Assembly: GCA_030840645.1 (NCBI GenBank)
Contig: JAVEEC010000051.1
Location: forward strand, 33,326 to 97,325
Length of the DNA: 64,000 bases
Source of the DNA: Frankiaceae bacterium
Lineage (GTDB): Bacteria > Actinomycetota > Actinomycetes > BP-191
Reading direction: 5' to 3'
Position numbers and translations under genes: made by a program
In this document: positions 23,849-24,616 of the stretch, in pieces
Position numbering within the stretch: the first letter of the stretch is position 1
How the letters are laid out: every line of letters starts with the position of its first letter
Notes under the pieces: generated by a model
Database searches by the model: none
Told to the model about the DNA's origin: nothing
What the model saw: the letters and a program-made list of their open reading frames with translations, nothing else

Positions 23849-23980
23849 CTAGAACGAATGACGCCCCTCGGACCGTGCGATGTCCTGCGAGTCGGGACCG
23901 TCCGGGGCCGCGAGGTCGAGCAGCAGCGACAGCGGCACGCCGCTGCGCAGGCAGTCGTACGCGGAGAGGGATCCCCCCAT
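23849..23980 (-). CDS. Small protein (43 aa)
   Basis: MGGSLSAYDCLRSGVPLSLLLDLAAPDGPDSQDIARSEGRHSF with GGAAGGAAG upstream; below ORF-track cutoff. Confidence 0.5.
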   Translation of the reverse strand: MGGSLSAYDCLRSGVPLSLLLDLAAPDGPDSQDIARSEGRHSF

Positions 23981-24074: not shown

Positions 24075-24173
24075 AACGGCCCTCTAGCGGCCGGGGGCTA
24101 CTCGGCGCCGCGCGGGCGGGGCATACTGCCACGAACCTGGCGCATCCCCTACAGATGACCCATGGAGTCCGAC

Positions 24174-24374
24174 ATGCCACGAATCCTCCTGGTGGCCGCG
24201 GCCTGTGCCGCTCTCGTCCTCGGCTCGGCCGGCGCCGCGTCCGCCCACCCCGGCGGGAGCTGCGAGGGCGTCGTCGACGTCTTCTGCCGCGGCCACGTCT
24301 GCCAGCCCGACGAGCTCGACTGCGGCCTGGTCCCGCCCTGCGTGCTCTGGGTCGCCGGCGTCTGCCTCTACTGA
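24174..24374 (+). CDS. Small secreted Cys-rich peptide
   Basis: Signal peptide MPRILLVAAACAALVLGSAGAASA then HPGGSCEGVVDVFCRGHVCQPDELDCGLVPPCVLWVAGVCLY (6 Cys). Confidence 0.65.
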   Translation: MPRILLVAAACAALVLGSAGAASAHPGGSCEGVVDVFCRGHVCQPDELDCGLVPPCVLWVAGVCLY

Positions 24375-24430
24375 GCCGCGACCCGCGCACCCAGCCCACC
24401 GCCCAACCACCCCGACGAACGGAGCCCGTC

Positions 24431-24616
24431 ATGCGCAAGCTCACCCTCACCCGCGAGCACCTGACCGAGCTGACCAGCGGCGAGCTGACCGGCGTCGTCG
24501 CCGCCAGCGGCGTCACCTGCGTGCAGCTCGCCTGCGTGCGCGACCTCAGCGACCGGCTGGCGGCGTGTGACAGCCTGCTGCGGCCGTGCATCAGCGCGAC
24601 CACCTGTACCTGCTGA
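24431..24616 (+). CDS. Putative RiPP (class I lanthipeptide-like) precursor peptide
   Basis: Leader MRKLTLTREHLTELTSGELTGVVA and Cys/Ser/Thr-rich C-terminus SGVTCVQLACVRDLSDRLAACDSLLRPCISATTCTC; GGAG RBS. Confidence 0.6.
   Translation: MRKLTLTREHLTELTSGELTGVVAASGVTCVQLACVRDLSDRLAACDSLLRPCISATTCTC

Follow-up and report, generated by a model that had tools for sequence, protein, structure and literature searches.

The precursor gene and its surroundings

A gene that resembles a lanthipeptide precursor and lies among genes with no apparent connection to lanthipeptides raises the question of whether, and by what enzymes, its product might be modified. We addressed this question for a short open reading frame (ORF) in a 64,000-nucleotide stretch of DNA, hereafter the window. 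A first-pass annotation had described the ORF as an orphan precursor with an LxLxxExLxELTxxEL leader of the class I lanthipeptide type and a core holding six Cys, and had proposed that it is modified in trans or, alternatively, that its leader is paired with unrecognised chemistry. The ORF, its leader and its core were recovered at exactly the coordinates first assigned to the gene, and the features of the locus are as follows:

24162..24374, + strand: secreted Cys-rich mini-protein, 70 aa, ending 56 bp upstream of the precursor and belonging to a second small family
24421..24424, + strand: ribosome-binding site GGAG, 6 bases 5' of the ATG
24431..24616, + strand: lanthipeptide-type precursor gene, 61 aa, ATG to TGA, matching the family profile
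24431..24505, + strand: leader, 25 aa, LxLxxExLxELTxxEL, terminating in VVAA
24506..24613, + strand: core, 36 aa, with 6 Cys and 8 Ser/Thr

The reading frame is intact and the leader motif complete, the leader being MRKLTLTREHLTELTSGELTGVVAA and the core SGVTCVQLACVRDLSDRLAACDSLLRPCISATTCTC. A profile built from G001 and G002 members only, that is from the two congeners of the window's own genome (G000), matched this ORF alone among the 835 ORFs of the window (E = 3.8e-13); the runner-up reached E = 0.83 and the best match in the reversed window 0.049. Searched by itself, the window precursor gave nothing useful against Pfam and no NCBIfam match even at E = 10, the leader model NF038153 included.

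The gene is surrounded by ordinary genes for metabolism, transport and the cell wall, as called with a home-made codon-usage caller. The ten nearest correspond to GCV_T, Fur, aminotransferase IV, a Na/H exchanger, a 2-hydroxyacid dehydrogenase, a sugar transferase, one protein without a match, NlpC/P60, an epimerase and an acyl-CoA dehydrogenase; none of the ten is a lanthipeptide enzyme, in agreement with the earlier observation that no RiPP enzyme gene adjoins the ORF. The term orphan is thus accurate locally but fails at the scale of the genome, which holds 27 family members together with LanB, LanC and a C39 exporter on other contigs (the precursor lies on contig C11, the LanB and LanC matches on C97 and C9). 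Orthologues of the flanking genes occur in other surroundings in G001 and G002, so that the precursor site is not conserved there. Searches of plasmid and phage collections gave no match, and so no sign of a mobile carrier among them.

A precursor family in three congeneric genomes

Using a profile (A1) made from 94 members, we counted 27 family members in G000, at least 60 in G001 and at least 54 in G002, the last two counts being lower bounds because only part of the candidates was scored (150 of 189 and 150 of 176, respectively). Extraction from the fetched loci returned the same 141 members, a recount that is not independent because those loci had been picked from the search matches; the statistics given here refer to 140 members, one at a contig edge being unreadable. 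When members within 3 kb of one another are joined into a site, the family occupies 13 sites in G000, 25 in G001 (with 59 of its 60 members counted) and 16 in G002, in arrays of up to 14 members and as many singletons. Neighbouring members are mostly co-directional (74 of 86 pairs) with a median gap of 27 bp, and the neighbour genes that different sites have in common are those of the machinery, members of widespread families or syntenic orthologues.

Searches beyond these genomes returned little. At E ≤ 0.01, the single protein had matches in 6 of 148 genomes: its own and its two congeners, with further copies, and three from other genera with one weak match apiece. The family search at the level of the order spanned only G000, G001 and G002. 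Within the class (393 genomes), matches at E ≤ 1e-4 were confined to four genomes, namely the three congeners and one with a single weak match (9.3e-5), although absence elsewhere in the class is not firm because at most 17 candidates were scored per genome.

The members share a leader and differ in their cores. Over 1500 random pairs, identity was 0.56 in the leader and 0.27 in the core, against 0.23 for shuffled cores. Leaders end in GG (74), GA (55), AG (6), AA (3), SG (1) or RA (1), which makes the VVAA of the window copy atypical, GG or GA being found in 129 of the 140 relatives and AA in 3. The mean core length is 33 residues, and Cys and Thr make up 12.5% and 14.2% of the cores, compared with 0.1% Cys in leaders; every one of the 140 carries Cys (1-7 per member) and at least three Ser/Thr. 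Despite this variability, 134 of 9730 core pairs scored above 45, where the maximum across 6000 shuffles was 31, and these pairs form 16 groups. Eleven of the groups have members in two or more genomes, and one is syntenic in all three (contigs C82 in G000, C38 in G001 and C10 in G002). The cores nearest to that of the window precursor are those of three G001 members (scores 69, 64 and 61 vs a shuffled maximum of 31), with which it has the pattern C-x-S-x-L-R-P-C-[IV]-S...C-T in common.

As for the leader type, NF038153, a model of class I lanthipeptide leaders, matched 78 of 94 members at E ≤ 1; the leader-model search suggested in the first-pass annotation thus failed for the window copy itself and succeeded for most of its family. 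TIGR04149, a model of radical SAM-modified RiPPs, matched 21 of 94 weakly (E ≤ 1). A ribosome-binding word precedes 115 of 140 members; the corresponding figures are 195 of 473 for long called genes and 969 of 5000 for ATG/GTG codons taken at random. A search for a common upstream regulatory motif in the family returned only such RBS-like words as enriched. We set aside dN/dS (0.61 for leaders and 0.83 for cores over 79 pairs), because synonymous sites appear to be saturated in this GC-rich genome and the window copy's own values were erratic.

LanB, LanC and LanT operons flanked by family members

Every one of the three genomes holds a lanC-lanB-small membrane protein-lanT(C39) operon bordered by family arrays on one side or on both. 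A genome scan for LanB and LanC, as had been proposed, thus located both on contigs other than that of the window precursor; the case that would have refuted the first-pass reading, in which no carrier genome has modification enzymes, did not occur. The LanB on contig C97 of G000 is a 1035-aa protein that unites PF04738 and PF14028; the LanB of G000 and that of G001 both carry Lant_dehydr_N and Lant_dehydr_C, and that of G002 aligns to solved LanB structures, including 9g04, 5ehk and NisB/MibB. Relatives of the enzyme include proteins of Modestobacter and Blastococcus at 47%; together with high GC and gene content, they suggest that the genus belongs to Actinomycetes. LanC belongs to PF05147, and all three proteins carry AWCYG and LCHGS unchanged; the G002 copy aligns to NisC including the C..CH triad, whose Cys, Cys and His we take to be the zinc ligands. 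LanT combines a C39 domain with membrane and ATPase domains; the nearest NCBIfam model to the G002 protein is TIGR03796, below its cut-off. The third gene of the operon encodes 143-194 aa with one apparent membrane helix and has no informative family match; it may represent a truncated HlyD-type adaptor.

LanB matches number one in G001, one in G002 and, in G000, one full copy plus a piece at a contig edge. The two G000 copies are 87% identical and the corresponding LanT pieces 91% identical. Given these duplicates and a contamination estimate of 6.99% for this assembly, one operon copy or some of the precursors may belong to a second organism, and a related one may be the source of the duplicate lanBT. 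A ProcM-like cyclase with a CCG motif, considered as a further candidate, is ruled out in this genus, as its LanC carries CHG. For LanM, PF13575 gave no match in the three genomes, an uncalibrated negative given that the positive control was equally silent.

Two further loci on contig C1 of G001 hold lanthipeptide genes. In one (L049 14827-16427; 34.8-36.4 kb), a second lanC adjoins a family precursor that stands alone, and there is no LanB in the vicinity. The other (L050 5558-13166; about 75.6-83.2 kb) is a separate lanthipeptide cluster with a class III synthetase, LanKC (NF038151, 805 bits), which also comprises a small ORF, an extra LanC-like protein and two proteins resembling ABC transporters.

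The leader type is also tied to LanB independently of gene order in the three congeneric genomes. Applied to six-frame ORFs of 80 LanB loci, the profile made from G001 and G002 members gave 32 matches at E ≤ 1e-3. These fell in 20 loci, which represent Actinomycetota, Bacteroidota, Gemmatimonadota, Myxococcota and other groups; the remaining 60 loci had no match at this threshold, and reversed copies gave 0. The ORFs found in this way typically have K-L-x-L-x-K-E leaders with GG, often followed by Cys-bearing tails. An earlier scan of LanB flanks with a seed-leader model (E ≤ 0.05) had found matches in 3 of 81 loci, an underestimate in comparison with 20 of 80. The expansion of precursors is not general outside the genus: NF038153 at E ≤ 0.1 gave 0-8 matches in each of 34 further LanB-bearing genomes, with the exception of two Kordia genomes.

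Interpretation of the window precursor

Taken together, the family, the leave-out profile, the linkage to LanB and the flanked operons indicate that the supposed orphan is most plausibly a precursor of class I lanthipeptide type that is modified in trans. We hold it to be very probable that the window gene contributes one member to a large library of class I lanthipeptide precursors served by distant LanB, LanC and C39 proteins. Modification in trans had been suggested initially, and it is now supported by the presence of these proteins elsewhere in the genome beside precursors of the same family; the alternative of unrecognised chemistry found no support. Under such a scheme, LanB encoded on another contig would read the leader, then glutamylate core Ser/Thr and carry out elimination; LanC would add Cys thiols to form (methyl)lanthionine rings; and cleavage behind the leader (at VVAA here, usually at GG/GA) and export of the product would fall to the C39-peptidase ABC exporter. 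A single machinery per genome would serve tens of precursors, whether arrayed or lone, and for the window copy every step would take place in trans. Its recognition in trans, ring formation, cleavage at AA and export are predictions from sequence, and we infer, rather than observe, that its modification in fact occurs.

That so small an ORF could be a chance resemblance to a leader has to be considered in high-GC DNA rich in spurious ORFs (22 kb contain 131 that reach 50 aa or more), but this reading has a negligible probability: it is refuted by the profile that was blind to the window copy and matched nothing else in the window, and it sits poorly with core similarity that extends across genomes. 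Decay would be another way to account for an isolated copy. The window gene might be a silent paralogue whose processing was lost through its AA leader end and its isolation, and the rarity of that ending, the lone and non-syntenic site and the fact that the window copy alone has no NCBIfam match are what decay would predict. We consider this unlikely, given that the frame and the leader motif are preserved, the ribosome-binding site is in place and the core pattern recurs in the three G001 members.

A different objection concerns the chemistry of the whole family, whose cores could be secreted disulfide-rich peptides or substrates of radical SAM or YcaO enzymes, LanB and LanC acting on few of them. 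The many Cys per core and the TIGR04149 matches point that way, yet NF038153 matches far more of the members, the machinery flanked by arrays is LanB/LanC/C39 in all three genomes, and the leave-out profile finds precursors beside LanB in other phyla; this reading is therefore very improbable.

Comparison with known systems

Modification in trans by one class I machinery can be compared with several described systems. Systems detected by NF038153 (lant_leader_L1a) resemble the family in leader motif, GG/GA leader end, Cys-rich core and the presence of LanB, LanC and C39 in the genome. According to the available part of Walker 2020 (PMC7268733), class I leaders of the LxLxKx5L type with GG and C39 exporters are known from Bacteroidetes. 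The search in that part of the study was limited to seven genes around lanC, whereas most members here lie far from the machinery, and the family here comprises 27 to at least 60 precursors per genome in what is probably an actinomycete genus.

The plan of one synthetase and many precursors has to date been reported chiefly from marine cyanobacteria, which use another type of enzyme. In prochlorosins and synechococsins (ProcA-ProcM and SyncA-SyncM), as far as the accessible text of PMC10783134 and PMC12328550 goes, a single synthetase serves scattered precursors, with 29 and 79 substrates. The likeness extends to tens of precursors, lone and in tandem arrays, and to a conserved leader ending in GG in front of a hypervariable core. 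Those systems, however, use a class II LanM with a CCG motif and Nif11-type leaders, in contrast to LanB plus LanC, CHG and an L1a-type leader here. The parts consulted of PMC12328550 link the CCG cyclase motif with the low specificity of ProcM, and those of PMC11251773 regard genome-scattered precursors as characteristic of class II synthetases of the CCC type.

A plan like that of this genus also seems to exist in the unrelated Kordia. The two exceptional genomes (G421 and G423, reached through L130 and L144) have 72 and 60 NF038153 matches genome-wide (E ≤ 0.1) and one LanB match each. Of 20 stretches fetched from Kordia algicida, 11 held GG-type peptides, 12 in total, each of which contains Cys. 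Unlike the present genus, Kordia belongs to Bacteroidota, its leaders are of the LxLxK type without the E-x-LTELT stretch, and its LanB open frame is only 759 aa, possibly split. Kordia is called RiPP-rich, with Cys-rich precursors adjoining class I enzymes, in the accessible part of PMC11118758; that of PMC10734526 notes its many gene clusters and makes no mention of scattered precursors. We found no comparably large class I system in the literature searched, which is weak evidence of novelty because subscription papers and preprints lay mostly outside the search.

On balance, we lean towards the view that the prochlorosins have a natural class I counterpart in this genus, where one promiscuous LanB/LanC/C39 set serves a diversifying, genome-wide library of 27 to at least 60 precursors. 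Substrate breadth would then not need a CCG cyclase, because the LanC here carries the ordinary CHG motif, and a LanB/LanC pair with a ProcM-like substrate load and a normal CHG would allow the idea of CCG-based tolerance to be tested. If this view is right, these enzymes would offer a new platform for peptide libraries, cluster-based mining would miss most precursors of such genomes, and an apparent orphan would become a testable substrate.

Other small genes and neighbours of precursor sites

Two other ORFs lie close to the window precursor. The 43-aa ORF at 23852-23980 (- strand), starting MGGSLSAYDCLRSGVPLSLLLDL, had no convincing relative among 52 sequences from the congeneric genomes. 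The mini-protein immediately upstream of the precursor belongs to a family with a signal peptide, the motif CxGxVDxxC...CLVWV and six Cys aligned in all eight. With a threshold of E ≤ 1e-10, its profile matched eleven sequences (1 in G000, 8 in G001 and 2 in G002), eight of which are the profile's own seeds; members include, besides the window copy (24162-24374, +), those at L052 3344-4143 (-), L184 9950-10473 (-) and L055 6587-6787 (-). Several adjoin family precursors, and three occur on contigs that lack a precursor match (G001 C22, G002 C34 and C81); a link between the window mini-protein and the precursor is uncertain. Near the precursor array beside lanC, G000 and G001 encode large proteins of 2030 and 1805 aa (L041 8546-14638 and L047 2557-7974, respectively), of which the 1805-aa protein appears RHS/SpvB-like by eye.
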